In this document: piece after piece, positions 4,222 to 16,216 of the stretch | Layout: the number at the start of each line of letters is the position of its first letter | Numbering within the stretch: the stretch's first letter is position 1 | Assembly (NCBI RefSeq): GCF_003258595.1 | Contig: NZ_QHHQ01000002.1 | Location: 1,054,001 to 1,118,000 of the forward strand | Length of the DNA: 64,000 nucleotides | Source: Acuticoccus sediminis | Lineage (GTDB): Bacteria > Pseudomonadota > Alphaproteobacteria > Rhizobiales > Amorphaceae | Reading direction: 5' to 3' | The notes under the pieces: model-generated | Told to the model about the DNA's origin: nothing | Seen by the model: the letters and a program-made list of their open reading frames with translations, nothing else | Databases searched by the model: none | Position numbers and translations under genes: made by a program

Positions 4222-5724
4222 TCAGTCCTCGAGCGCGGCGAGCTTGCGTTTGGCGCGCAGCATGGGGAGGGCGAGGCTCGCCACCAGCACGACGGTCACC
4301 AGCAGGAAGGCGCCGCTGATCGGCCGCTCCACGAAGGTCAGGATATCGCCGCGCGAGAAGAGCAGCGCGCGGCGGAAGTGCTGCTCCAGCATCGGGCCGA
4401 GGATGAAGCCCATCAGCATCGGCGCGGTGGGGTAGCCGAAGGCGTTCATCAGGTAGCCGAGGACGCCGAAGACGATCACCGTCATCACGTCGAACGGGCT
4501 GTTGTTCACCGAATAGACGCCGATGCAGATGAAGAACAGGATTCCCGGGAAGAGCAGCCGCTGCGGGATCGTCAGGATCCGCACCCAGAAGCCGATCAGC
4601 GGGATGTTGAGGACGAGCAGCATCAGGTTGCCAACCCAGAAGCTGACGACGAGGCCCCAGAAGAGGTCGGCGTTGGTGGTGAAGAACTCCGGCCGCGGCG
4701 TGATGCCGTGGATCATCATGGCGCCGAGCAGCACAGCCATGCCCGCGTCGCCCGGGATGCCGAGGGCGAGGGTCGGGATGAAGGCCGCCTGGGTGGAGGC
4801 GTTGTTGGCCGCCTCGGGCGAGGAGATGCCCTCGATGGCCCCGGTGCCGAACTTCTCGGGCGTGCGCGAGACGCGCTTCTCGACCGCGTAGGCGAGGAAG
4901 GCGGCGAGCGTCGGTCCCGCGCCGGGCAGGATGCCGATGAAGGAGCCGACGAAGCTGCCGCGAATCGCCGGGCGCCAGCACTCGCGGAGGTCCTGCCGGG
5001 TGGGCATGAGCTCGCGCATGCGCACCTTCTGCGGCTTCATCTCGCGCGGCTTGCCGGCGTTCTTGAGGAGCTCGGCGACGCCGAAGAGACCCATCGCCAT
5101 GGCGACGAGGTTGAGCCCGTCCTGCAACTCAAGCACGCCGAAGCTGTAGCGGATGTGTCCCGAGGTCGGGTCCATGCCCACCGTCGAGAGCAACAGCCCG
5201 GCGACCACCGAGATGAGGCCCTTGATGGGCGAGCCGAGGGACATCGTCGCGGCGGCGACGAGGCCGAGGAGCATGATGGAGAAGTACTCGGCCGAGGAGA
5301 ATTTCAGCGCCATCTGTCCGAGCGCCGGGGCGAAGCTCATCACCAGCACGATGGCGAAGCAGCCACCGAAGAAGGACGTCAGCGTCGTGATGAAGAGGGC
5401 GACGCCGGCGCGGCCCTGCTTGGCCATCGGGTATCCGTCGAGGGCGGTGACCGCGGTCGTCGACGTGCCGGGGAGGTTGAGGAGGATCGAGGCGGTCGAA
5501 CCGCCATACTGGGCGCCGTAGAAGATGCCCGCCAGCATGATGAGCGCGCTCATCGGCTGCAGGTGGTAGGTGATCGGCAGCGTCATGGCGACGGCGGCGA
5601 GCGGGCCGATCCCGGGCAGCACGCCGATGAACATGCCGACCGAGACGCCTATCAGGCAGAAGAGGAGCGCCTCTCCCGTGATCGCGACCTGAAGCCCGAG
5701 TGCGAGGCCGGAAAGGAGATCCAT
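4222..5724 (-). CDS. Tripartite tricarboxylate transporter, TctA large membrane subunit
   Basis: A 500-residue integral membrane protein with about 12 helices and the TctA repeats GIGPLAAVAMTLPITYHLQP, GGSTASILLNLPGT and, in the second half, GAGPTLAAFLAYAVEKR and ALGIPGDAGMAVLLGAMMIHG. It forms the channel of a sodium- or proton-coupled carboxylate uptake system fed by a periplasmic TctC protein. ATG at 5724 (GGGAG eight bases upstream) is preferred over the in-frame TTG one codon earlier. It follows TctB immediately. The matching TctC is probably the one at 8131 across the divergent promoter, since both promoters carry the same operator. Confidence 0.95.
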   Translation of the reverse strand: MDLLSGLALGLQVAITGEALLFCLIGVSVGMFIGVLPGIGPLAAVAMTLPITYHLQPMSALIMLAGIFYGAQYGGSTASILLNLPGTSTTAVTALDGYPMAKQGRAGVALFITTLTSFFGGCFAIVLVMSFAPALGQMALKFSSAEYFSIMLLGLVAAATMSLGSPIKGLISVVAGLLLSTVGMDPTSGHIRYSFGVLELQDGLNLVAMAMGLFGVAELLKNAGKPREMKPQKVRMRELMPTRQDLRECWRPAIRGSFVGSFIGILPGAGPTLAAFLAYAVEKRVSRTPEKFGTGAIEGISSPEAANNASTQAAFIPTLALGIPGDAGMAVLLGAMMIHGITPRPEFFTTNADLFWGLVVSFWVGNLMLLVLNIPLIGFWVRILTIPQRLLFPGILFFICIGVYSVNNSPFDVMTVIVFGVLGYLMNAFGYPTAPMLMGFILGPMLEQHFRRALLFSRGDILTFVERPISGAFLLVTVVLVASLALPMLRAKRKLAALED

Positions 5725-5727
5725 CAA

Positions 5728-6171
5728 TCAGCTCCCGAACGCGGCGATCGGGATCTGAAGGCCGCGGATGAACAGGACATAGCCCACGAGGGTCAGTCCG
5801 GCGGCGAGCGCGGCGGTCTCGTGGAGTTTGATGTCGCGTTCGGCCTGGGCCGAGATGGCGACGAGGGCGAAGGTGGCGGGGACGAAGCCGAGCCAGTCCA
5901 CCAGCACCACCCAGACGAGGATGCCGCCGAGGATCAGGACCGCCGGGCGCAGGTGCAGGTCCAGCGAGACCGCCGGCAGGCCGCGGCCGAGGAAGGCGGC
6001 GCCGAGGCCGAGGACCACGAGGAGGGCGCCCAGCATGATCGGCACGAAGCCCGGTCCCATGCGCACCACCGTCCCGAACGGGTAGTCGCGCGCGACGATC
6101 ATCGCCGCCACGCCGACTGCCGCGATGACGAGGCCGGCGCCGATCTCCTGGAAATTGCGGTATCGCTTCAC
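5728..6171 (-). CDS. Tripartite tricarboxylate transporter, TctB small membrane subunit
   Basis: A 147-residue protein with four predicted transmembrane segments (LVIAAVGVAAMIVA; IMLGALLVVLGLGAAFL; AVLILGGILVWVVLVDWLGFVPATFALVAI; TAALAAGLTLVGYVLFI), the usual shape of TctB. The motif GPGFVP in the first loop is typical. Start is GTG at 6171, with GAGGA three bases upstream. First gene of the tctBA operon, with three bases between its stop and the TctA ATG. An unusually long stretch (6172-6486) separates it from the operator at 6487-6509. Confidence 0.93.
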   Translation of the reverse strand: MKRYRNFQEIGAGLVIAAVGVAAMIVARDYPFGTVVRMGPGFVPIMLGALLVVLGLGAAFLGRGLPAVSLDLHLRPAVLILGGILVWVVLVDWLGFVPATFALVAISAQAERDIKLHETAALAAGLTLVGYVLFIRGLQIPIAAFGS

Positions 6172-15473: not shown

Positions 15474-15502
15474 GCCCGTCCGAACTTCAGCAGAGAACCG
15501 AC

Positions 15503-16216
15503 ATGACCGAACGCATCTGGGACAAGTTCCTGACCGACGAGGACAAGGAGATCTATCAGCTCGCCGGCTACGGCAAGCGCGGCGGTTTCGGAAAGCGTCC
15601 GGCGCTCTTCATCATCGACGTGCAGTACAACTTCACCGGCGACGAGCCGGGCGAGAGCCAGGTCGAAGGCATCAAGAAGTACCGCACCCACTGCGGCCCC
15701 CGGGGCTGGAACGCGGTGCCGCACATCGAGCGGCTCCTGAAGCTCGCGCGCGAGAAGAACCTGCCGGTCTTCTACACCCAGTCCGAGCGGCGCGCGGACA
15801 TGATCGACAGCGGCGTCCAGGTCGGCAAGAACCACCGCGGCACCGAGAAGTCGTCCATCGAAGGCACCCACGCGACGCAGACCGTGGCCTCGCTCGCGCC
15901 GCAGGCGAAGGACATCCTGATCGGCAAGCGCAAGCCGTCGGCCTTCTTCGGCACGATCTTCATGAGCCACCTCAACTTCCTCGACGTGGACACGCTGATC
16001 CTCACCGGGTGCACGACGTCGGGCTGCCTGCGCGCCACGACGGTCGACGCCTACTCCTTCAACTTCAAGGTCGTGATTCCCGAGGAGACCGCGTTCGACC
16101 GCTTCGAGGCGAGCCACGCGATCAACCTCTTCGACCTCAACTGCAAGTACGCCGACGTGATCCCGACCGACGACGTCGCCGCCTACCTCGACGGCCTCGA
16201 GCGCCGCGAGGGCTGA
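15503..16216 (+). CDS. Isochorismatase-superfamily amidase (maleamate/N-carbamoylsarcosine amidase-like)
   Basis: A 237-residue cysteine hydrolase. The catalytic triad is visible as Asp39 (LFIIDVQYNF), Lys142 (IGKRKPSAFFGT) and Cys175 (LTGCTTSGCLRATTVDA). The N-terminal extension WDKFLTDEDKEIYQLAGYGKRGGFGKRPAL and the SAFFGT segment resemble N-carbamoylsarcosine amidohydrolase and maleamate amidase rather than isochorismatase itself. It would release ammonia (or CO2 plus ammonia) from the product of the preceding hydantoinase-type enzyme. Last gene of the aconitase operon, 29 bases after the hydantoinase. Start at ATG 15503 fits the family. Confidence 0.88.
   Translation: MTERIWDKFLTDEDKEIYQLAGYGKRGGFGKRPALFIIDVQYNFTGDEPGESQVEGIKKYRTHCGPRGWNAVPHIERLLKLAREKNLPVFYTQSERRADMIDSGVQVGKNHRGTEKSSIEGTHATQTVASLAPQAKDILIGKRKPSAFFGTIFMSHLNFLDVDTLILTGCTTSGCLRATTVDAYSFNFKVVIPEETAFDRFEASHAINLFDLNCKYADVIPTDDVAAYLDGLERREG

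Follow-up and report, generated by a model that had tools for sequence, protein, structure and literature searches.

What kind of compound would call for an amide-ring hydrolase, an amidase, an aconitase homologue and a carbon-carbon lyase in one set of genes? The question is raised by positions 4,222 to 16,216 of a 64,000-nucleotide stretch of the Acuticoccus sediminis genome (7.76 Mb; G000 among the genomes compared). This stretch, hereafter the window, covers forward-strand positions 1,054,001 to 1,118,000 of contig NZ_QHHQ01000002.1 in assembly GCF_003258595.1. With modest confidence, the locus is read here as a catabolic unit, under GntR control, that would degrade a carboxylated cyclic imide. 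The likely pathway logic, judged from sequence comparison, would be that the ring is opened, the half-amide deamidated, and the resulting acid hydrated and cleaved. The genes concerned are as follows.

4222..5727, minus strand: TctA, large membrane subunit of a tripartite tricarboxylate transporter (TTT; Pfam TctA, 542 bits)
5728..6171, minus strand: TctB, small membrane subunit of the TTT system (Pfam TctB, 61 bits)
6696..8102, plus strand: FAD_binding_2 flavoprotein, kin of tricarballylate dehydrogenase (TcuA) and flavocytochrome c, under their curated cut-offs (Pfam, curated models)
8131..9084, plus strand: TctC solute-binding protein (Pfam TctC, 215 bits)
9253..10164, minus strand: carbon-carbon lyase of the isocitrate lyase/phosphoenolpyruvate mutase (ICL/PEP-mutase) superfamily with a KRCGH motif (Pfam, alignments)
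10161..10841, minus strand: GntR-FCD regulator (Pfam GntR 41.5 bits, FCD 61.2 bits)
10976..13711, plus strand: AcnA-type hydratase, aconitase plus C-terminal domain, with an altered substrate loop (Pfam, alignments)
13708..14112, plus strand: SnoaL-like protein (Pfam SnoaL_2, 25.3 bits, slightly below the gathering score of 27)
14109..15473, plus strand: cyclic amidohydrolase of the hydantoinase/allantoinase group, proposed imidase (Pfam, curated models)
15503..16216, plus strand: isochorismatase-family amidase, proposed half-amidase (Pfam; the start at 15503 is likely)

A Pfam scan recovered at these positions every gene that the initial annotation, made from the sequence alone, had named, and all three TTT subunits are present in the window. 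The start of tctC at 8131 was inferred from the signal-peptide-like MKLKLTGLAAAAVLALGLAPAMA, within an enclosing open reading frame (ORF) at 8050-9084 on the plus strand. Overlaps of four bases join the aconitase-like gene (acn) to the SnoaL gene, the SnoaL gene to the hydantoinase-like gene (hyd), and the regulator gene to the lyase gene, in keeping with the earlier description of the genes as tightly coupled. The genes likely form four transcription units: tctBA (6171 to 4222, minus strand), flavoprotein-tctC (6696 to 9084, plus strand), gntR-lyase (10841 to 9253, minus strand), and acn-snoaL-hyd-iso (10976 to 16216, plus strand), where iso is the isochorismatase-like gene. The lyase, acn, hyd and iso together are referred to below as the core.

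The core is conserved well beyond this genome. When 150 related genomes were searched with the hyd protein, four held a protein 68-71% identical to it, and the next matches listed were at most 37% identical. A scan of one genome per species gave at least 595 pattern matches and at least 254 relatives, of which 80 were kept; 28 of these 80 were 57-83% identical to hyd and the remainder at most 37%. The four and the 28 make up 32 loci, whose flanks were inspected for neighbours to about 10 kb. All four core genes share one locus in 28 of the 32, including two Gluconacetobacter loci in which iso lies about 7 kb from hyd, while in three others (L048, L058, L068) a contig edge falls where the absent core gene would be. 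The gene set therefore co-occurs elsewhere, a point on which the initial annotation had staked its proposal. The core is kept in Roseovarius, Bosea, Rhodoplanes and Gluconacetobacter, and plasmid copies of the cluster are found in Antarctobacter and Shinella; the named records that carry it have alphaproteobacterial names. In the orthologous loci iso is 75-89% identical (72% in Shinella), and TctA homologues are 71-92% identical (44% in two Rhodoplanes loci). Across 15 loci, the pairwise identities of each core protein track those of the other three (Spearman 0.55-0.85), which shared genome descent could partly explain. In 385 sampled members of the class, one genome besides the window's own has iso at no less than 70% identity, and sixteen others carry iso paralogues at 42-49% identity, whose flanks were viewed to about 1.5 kb. 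The cluster is thus rare and unevenly spread, a distribution to be expected if the catabolic trait is transferable.

A second line of evidence lies between the genes. In the window, an operator-like palindromic motif, GTGTTGACAC, stands ahead of the core, transporter and flavoprotein units; the sites are as follows.

6494..6505, minus strand: TAGTGTTGACAG, operator-like site before tctBA, one mismatch against the 12-base form
6660..6671, plus strand: TAGTGTTGACAC, operator-like site before flavoprotein-tctC, exact
10855..10864, minus strand: AGTGTCGACA, operator-like site before gntR-lyase, one mismatch
10936..10947, plus strand: GAGTGTTGACAC, operator-like site before the aconitase operon (motif search)

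With at most one mismatch, AGTGTTGACA lies before all four units (6495 minus, 6661 plus, 10855 minus, 10937 plus); its window total is five matches against 0.53 expected, the fifth, at 9267, being within the lyase gene. The 12-base form, at up to two mismatches, has six matches in the 64 kb against 0.81 expected, a number reached in none of 100 shuffles. Three of the six stand before units, two are both strands of one place in the lyase gene, and one is distant, at 56467. Of 26 cluster-bearing loci, 24 have GTGTTGACAC, with no more than one mismatch, in the 300 bases ahead of acn, where mononucleotide shuffles predict 0.33 loci; this count covers 26 of 33 sources, with L039-L042, L048, L064 and L068 left aside for orientation or truncation, and some acn starts are approximate. 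The motif also lies between an SDR gene and the flavoprotein gene in L043, L045, L049, L050 and L070, between SDR and tctC in L044, where no flavoprotein match was found, and, in L052 and L066, before the ring-monooxygenase unit of a second set of inlet genes described below. Throughout G000 the 13-base form has three exact matches, two of them in the window, and five with at most one mismatch, three of them in the window; no pathway homologue (E<=1e-6) was found in the 20 kb surrounding either the exact match on contig C8 or the one-mismatch match on contig C3. In Antarctobacter, the genes downstream of two one-mismatch sites look like an unrelated pyridoxal phosphate (PLP)-decarboxylase cluster, and these sites may be chance matches.

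An operator is favoured over a bare promoter because the motif has palindromic flanks and what we take to be a likeness to the GntR-type yGT-KACr site; operator and promoter may overlap. We infer that the GntR protein binds this motif. Its presence before each unit is the main added support suggesting that transporter, flavoprotein and core belong together. The cluster is real and conserved, and it is probably co-regulated, which agrees with the initial placement of a catabolic unit beside, and apparently under, a GntR regulator.

The hydratase departs from an ordinary aconitase in ways that recur throughout the cluster. Sequences were aligned from the 25 of 36 sources, window included, that gave a long open frame with the filter motif TSCTNTSNP. 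In all 25 the substrate loop reads PDSSG(L/V)P, and CTTC(S/G)GKSGP, with its added lysine, replaces CTTCIGNSGP (CTTCSGKSGP in the window). The [4Fe-4S] cysteines and acid-binding arginines, whose roles we take to be those of mitochondrial aconitase, are kept in TSCTN (also part of the filter), CTTC, GNRNFEGR, RR[GC]N and GSSRDW. The genome encodes nine aconitase-family proteins including this one, and a separate canonical AcnA on contig C5 has the loop QDFTGVP and lacks the cluster signatures. The initial annotation would have been undone by a cluster homologue that was the cell's sole aconitase, and the canonical AcnA elsewhere in the genome shows that it is not.

These observations bear on the simplest alternative, in which unrelated catabolic genes were joined by chance or transfer and the aconitase is a spare AcnA. 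A genome with nine aconitase-family proteins could afford a spare one, and the variable presence of TTT, flavoprotein and SnoaL genes among loci is what a loose neighbourhood would produce, but the core stays together in distant genera with an operator-like motif ahead of it, and the hydratase signatures are missing from the genome's AcnA. Such an explanation is already disfavoured and appears very improbable.

The lyase carries a matching set of changes. Its KRCGH motif, found in the window protein as the earlier label "Cys-type" implied, is present in 33 of 33 aligned sequences, for which K[KR]CGH also served as a selection filter. Against the PrpB model TIGR02317 it scores 240.6 bits, below the cut-off of 354.4, and its solved relatives include methylisocitrate lyases and 2,3-dimethylmalate lyase. 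The loop NMGFGxRxRPTTP, with two extra arginines, occurs in all 33 sequences, whereas methylisocitrate lyases in the compared alignments have a shorter loop without these arginines, e.g., NMTEFG-KTPL. Taken together, the changes in hydratase and lyase suggest added positive charge at the expected active site, which would fit an added or longer acid arm. Because the AcnA-type arginines are kept alongside an extra lysine, and the lyase has two invariant extra arginines, the residues suggest a poly-acid larger than dimethylmaleate as a likelier substrate than dimethylmaleate or citraconate. The sequence of ring opening, deamidation, hydration and carbon-carbon cleavage first proposed for this locus is retained. 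The cleavage step also stands, but its products, first given as pyruvate plus a short acid, may rather be succinate and a keto acid.

The two enzymes thought to act before the hydratase are harder to assign. In hyd, the metal-ligand residues H62, H64, K145, K151, H186, H242 and D314 are invariant in five sequences; we presume that they form a binuclear center (HxH, lysine, two histidines, aspartate), with K145 or K151 as the ligand lysine. Hydantoinase and allantoinase are its best family matches, and it falls under the equivalog cut-offs of D-hydantoinase (252 of 393 bits), allantoinase (259 of 358) and ErtD (227 of 650). The nearest solved relatives of iso are N-carbamoylsarcosine amidohydrolases. 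Both best matches would suit a ureide route, in which hyd would open a carboxylated hydantoin or dihydropyrimidine, the amidase would free the carbamoyl group as CO2 and ammonia, and the aconitase and lyase would act on a separate acid or after deamination. Genes for a RidA-like protein and a luciferase-like monooxygenase beside the Bosea cluster L055, members of ORF families that are the same in four Bosea-group loci, likewise recall pyrimidine breakdown. However, the product of such a route would be an amino acid, for which the window's unit offers neither an ammonia lyase nor an aminotransferase; aminotransferases of class III are confined to loci with the second inlet. Nor does the ureide route account for the constant company of a hydratase and an isocitrate-type lyase, and as a whole it is considered unlikely.

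The flavoprotein scores 136.5 of 369 bits against the TcuA model. Since it is TcuA-like and lies near an imidase/amidase pair in haloarchaea and Variovorax as well, it is probably a pathway step and not merely a neighbour; the initial annotation was right about its presence, and its role is here moved from neighbor to likely step by this recurrence near hyd/iso pairs. The SnoaL-like protein has a confident predicted structure (pLDDT 85.6), and the top match, to the SnoaL half of a solved fusion of tautomerase and SnoaL (PDB 9mup/9mua), has 44% identity when aligned by structure and E 5e-24 by sequence. In the locus of genome G105, the gene beside iso (L042:8161-8946) matches SnoaL in its C-terminal half and looks tautomerase-like by eye in its N-terminal half. 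This hints that the SnoaL-like protein is tied to a tautomerisation step.

Cousin clusters with other hydratases follow the same logic. In 12 haloarchaeal loci, found among the 80 kept of at least 254 relatives, iso and hyd are adjacent in all 12, a flavoprotein is present in 10 and an aconitase-family protein in 11; the flavoprotein homologues are 41-44% identical in these loci and 53% in Variovorax. In Haloferax denitrificans the order is luciferase-like monooxygenase, amidase, hydantoinase, CoA-transferase, 3-hydroxy-3-methylglutaryl-coenzyme A (HMG-CoA)-lyase-like, LeuC-like and LeuD-like, an arrangement that would possibly correspond to hydration followed by cleavage as a CoA ester. Hydrogenophaga has hyd-iso-prpB, and Variovorax has prpD-flavoprotein-prpD-GTPase-hyd-iso. 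Near hyd in most of the other distant relatives kept (at most 36% identity), no amidase match was found at E<=1e-12, so the pairing of hyd with iso belongs to these groups and not to the whole hydantoinase family. The recurrence of amide ring, amide, hydratase and carbon-carbon lyase is a strong argument that the proposed order is chemical and not accidental. As a separate observation, the haloarchaeal loci L087 and L104 combine amidase-hydantoinase pairs with CoA-transferase genes and LeuCD-like or PrpD-like hydratases, and L087 has an HMG-CoA-lyase-like gene as well; these sets are a possible archaeal version of the route.

How the steps would fit together we infer from these enzyme families. 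The TTT system would import the acid; the hydantoinase-like enzyme would open the imide ring to a half-amide; and the isochorismatase-like enzyme would remove ammonia to leave a vicinal diacid. If the imported compound is saturated, the TcuA-like flavoprotein would supply the double bond. The modified aconitase would then hydrate the cis double bond to an isocitrate-like hydroxy acid with an extra substituent, and the methylisocitrate-lyase-like enzyme would split this into a 2-oxo acid and a dicarboxylic acid such as succinate. The SnoaL-like protein might aid tautomerisation or isomerisation, the least certain step. On chemical grounds a five-membered imide, i.e., a maleimide or succinimide with acid side arms, would be the best fit, because its hydrolysis directly yields a vicinal dicarboxylate for an aconitase and an ICL-type lyase. 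A ureide yields an amino acid instead, and a six-membered imide yields a cis-vicinal diacid only with a carboxyl on its middle carbon, as in citrazinate.

This exception defines a pyridine route, in which a six-membered glutaconimide, e.g., citrazinate (2,6-dihydroxyisonicotinate), would pass through cis-aconitamide, cis-aconitate and isocitrate to glyoxylate and succinate. A cis-vicinal triacid would suit an AcnA-type enzyme and an isocitrate-type lyase directly, and in a fungal nicotinate pathway a six-membered imide is handled by an imidase followed by an amidase (PMC9304392). Against this, the changed substrate loop and the added arginines and lysine are unexpected for ordinary cis-aconitate and isocitrate, and no molybdenum hydroxylase was found among the annotated neighboring ORFs, a subset of all ORFs. 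Nothing fitting a citrazinate or isonicotinate pathway was found in the open literature, and the route, quite unlikely in our estimate, is retained as a rival only. Homarine and vitamin B6 routes were set aside by reasoning, as they do not reach a vicinal diacid through an imide. A thiamine pyrimidine substrate was likewise rejected: an NMT1-type binding protein in Shinella and a ThiC-like ORF (by eye) in Bosea BH3 are lone neighbors not seen in other loci.

For the carboxylated cyclic imide speak the core block in 28 of 32 loci, the motif, the separate canonical AcnA, the loop signatures, the amidase kin and the recurring cousins. Several findings weigh on the other side. The hydratase scores 1042 bits against the AcnA model TIGR01341, above the cut-off of 945, so the family models leave a plain aconitase possible. 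The nearest named relatives of iso cleave a carbamoyl group and not a carboxamide, and hydantoins, allantoin and dihydropyrimidines are also substrates of the hydantoinase family. L064, a 3.5 kb contig with hyd (57% identical) at 1787-3136, shows no match to aconitase over the 1.8 kb ahead of hyd and is a genuine exception to the core. In the 10 kb flanks, TTT genes are found in 18 of the 32 loci, the flavoprotein in 15 and SnoaL in 14; being absent from many orthologous loci, these three are not essential to the core. As for the motif, L053 and L062 lack a copy, at one mismatch or fewer, in the 300 bases ahead of acn, the 13-base form at two mismatches has 13 matches genome-wide against 18 for a reversed control, and GTGTTGACAC includes TTGACA, the -35 promoter hexamer, so that its conservation may be partly that of a promoter.

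Some relatives carry a second inlet to the same core, consisting of an FAD ring monooxygenase whose nearest solved relatives are PnpA and HspB, a relative of maleate isomerase and arylmalonate decarboxylase, an aldehyde dehydrogenase, a UTRA-GntR regulator and a polyamine-type ABC importer, replaced in Gluconacetobacter by an amino-acid permease. The ring monooxygenase family is found in 14 of the 33 sources clustered. The class III aminotransferase accompanies the second inlet in L039, L040, L041, L053, L063, L065 and L153, i.e., 7 of 34 ortholog-bearing loci (L039-L070, L153, L154), and it occurs beyond those flanks in Bosea clusters as well. Parts of both inlets are present in the Bosea-group loci L055, L056, L057 and L059. 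An unknown family of about 175 amino acids lies beside the second inlet in seven loci (L039:16175-16705, L153:12738-13334 and five others); three members scanned gave no Pfam match, and an AlphaFold model of middling confidence (pLDDT 75, three sequences) gave no PDB match at E<=0.001. Also beside the core, the Shinella plasmid carries a second AcnA-type gene, a PrpD-like gene and a two-subunit thiamine pyrophosphate (TPP) enzyme (L153:4295-10971), which may serve a further, related acid pathway.

The core and second inlet of Shinella form one gene run, which ends at the porphobilinogen deaminase gene hemC; this gene encodes both Pfam domains and is convergent with the aminotransferase gene. 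Among 41 Bosea-group genomes, six have the amidase at E<=1e-70, and in these six HemC is 79-100% identical to that of CRIB-10 and is encoded some 11 kb away from iso, on one contig with it; in the other 35 the best HemC match to CRIB-10's is at most 77%. Next to hemC, and convergent with it, all six have a gene whose product is 57-60% identical to the aminotransferase of Shinella, and in five the cluster-linked hemC is the only HemC match. The tsaD-hemD neighbourhood holds hemC in G087 and G000 and lacks it in CRIB-10 and B. lupini (tsaD by eye). Likewise, Bosea G541 and G545 (L175, L176) have no hemC between tsaD and hemD, and their only HemC match is beside the catabolic cluster. Elsewhere HemC lies hundreds of kb from the cluster (G087, G048, G538) or on another contig (G121, G549), and the position of hemC varies in Bosea without the cluster too.

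That hemC is linked to the cluster in two lineages points to porphobilinogen, with its aminomethyl group as a fitting target for an aminotransferase and an aldehyde dehydrogenase, and raises the idea that the core ends a pathway mineralising a tetrapyrrole pyrrole building block. The aminotransferase would turn the aminomethyl group into an aldehyde and the dehydrogenase would turn this into an acid; oxidation of the pyrrole by the FAD monooxygenase would yield an imide bearing an acetate and a propionate arm; and ring opening, deamidation, hydration and cleavage by the core would convert this imide to succinate and 2-oxoglutarate. In the window, the TTT system might instead take up an acidic imide such as hematinic acid, which would yield pyruvate and glutarate. 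The idea is weakened by the remoteness of hemC in the five genomes just named, its mobility in Bosea and its lack of linkage in the window genome, and it must be regarded as doubtful. Neither second inlet nor linked hemC was found in the window genome, which has the TTT/flavoprotein inlet and whose best match to the second-inlet ring monooxygenase is only 29%.

Three further features of the window were noted. Directly after the cluster, and convergent with the amidase gene, 16283-18046 (minus strand) encodes a 587-amino-acid protein with RTX calcium-binding repeats. A second TctB-TctA pair lies at 57447-60414, 41 kb from the cluster. A terC RNA element (Rfam RF03067, 62.6 bits) at 23838-23895 falls inside an ORF called as a TerC membrane protein (23676-24998) and probably sits in the leader of the TerC gene.

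The open literature, with subscription papers largely outside it, holds no description that we found of this cluster, whether sought by its gene set, by cyclic imides with aconitase or by imide hydrolysis, in line with the initial remark that no described pathway with this gene set was known. Within the same limits, work on isonicotinate/citrazinate, homarine, hematinic acid and porphobilinogen breakdown does not describe the cluster. The locus offers a catabolic module with a clear regulator-operator handle that is sporadic in marine and soil Alphaproteobacteria, with cousins of like logic among haloarchaea and Betaproteobacteria, in which different hydratases and perhaps a CoA-thioester lyase take part. 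In such genomes, e.g., on the Antarctobacter and Shinella plasmids, genes labelled as aconitate hydratase AcnA or dihydroorotase probably carry the wrong name. If a tetrapyrrole fragment were the substrate, this would be the first gene set, within the open literature, for microbial finishing of the pieces of heme, chlorophyll or bilin breakdown.

Several known systems share parts of the proposed route. In the 2-methylcitrate cycle (AcnD/PrpB), hydration gives a 2-substituted isocitrate that PrpB cleaves. The cluster would resemble it in hydrating to a substituted isocitrate and in its PrpB-like lyase, but this lyase is under the PrpB cut-off with a longer, two-arginine loop, and the hydratase is far below the AcnD cut-off (731.7 of 1419.85 bits). 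Tricarballylate use (TcuABC) places unsaturation ahead of aconitase-type hydration, as the TcuA-like flavoprotein might do here, although the cluster flavoprotein is under the TcuA cut-off and is accompanied by imidase/amidase-like enzymes and a TTT importer. Nicotinate fermentation ends with dimethylmaleate hydratase, a two-subunit enzyme of LeuCD type, and 2,3-dimethylmalate lyase, and so with the same succession of aconitase-superfamily hydration and ICL/PEP-mutase-superfamily cleavage as is proposed here; in contrast, the cluster hydratase is of AcnA type with tri-acid arginines, and its unit includes an imidase/amidase-like pair. Bacterial cyclic-imide metabolism of the Blastobacter type uses an imidase and then a half-amidase, ending in maleate or succinate and the tricarboxylic acid cycle. 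It likewise opens an imide to a half-amide and deamidates this to a dicarboxylate, to which the cluster would add a dedicated aconitase-type hydratase, an ICL-type lyase, a GntR regulator and a TTT importer. In the Aspergillus nidulans nicotinate pathway, the cyclic imidase HxnM precedes the amide hydrolase HxnN; HxnM resembles peptidoglycan-deacetylase-type structures and acts on a six-membered imide, and the pathway reaches alpha-hydroxyglutarate (PMC9304392). The order of imidase and amide hydrolase is alike, and HxnM differs in structure type and ring size. The cluster is best placed as a probable form of imide catabolism, rather than as a separate kind of system.

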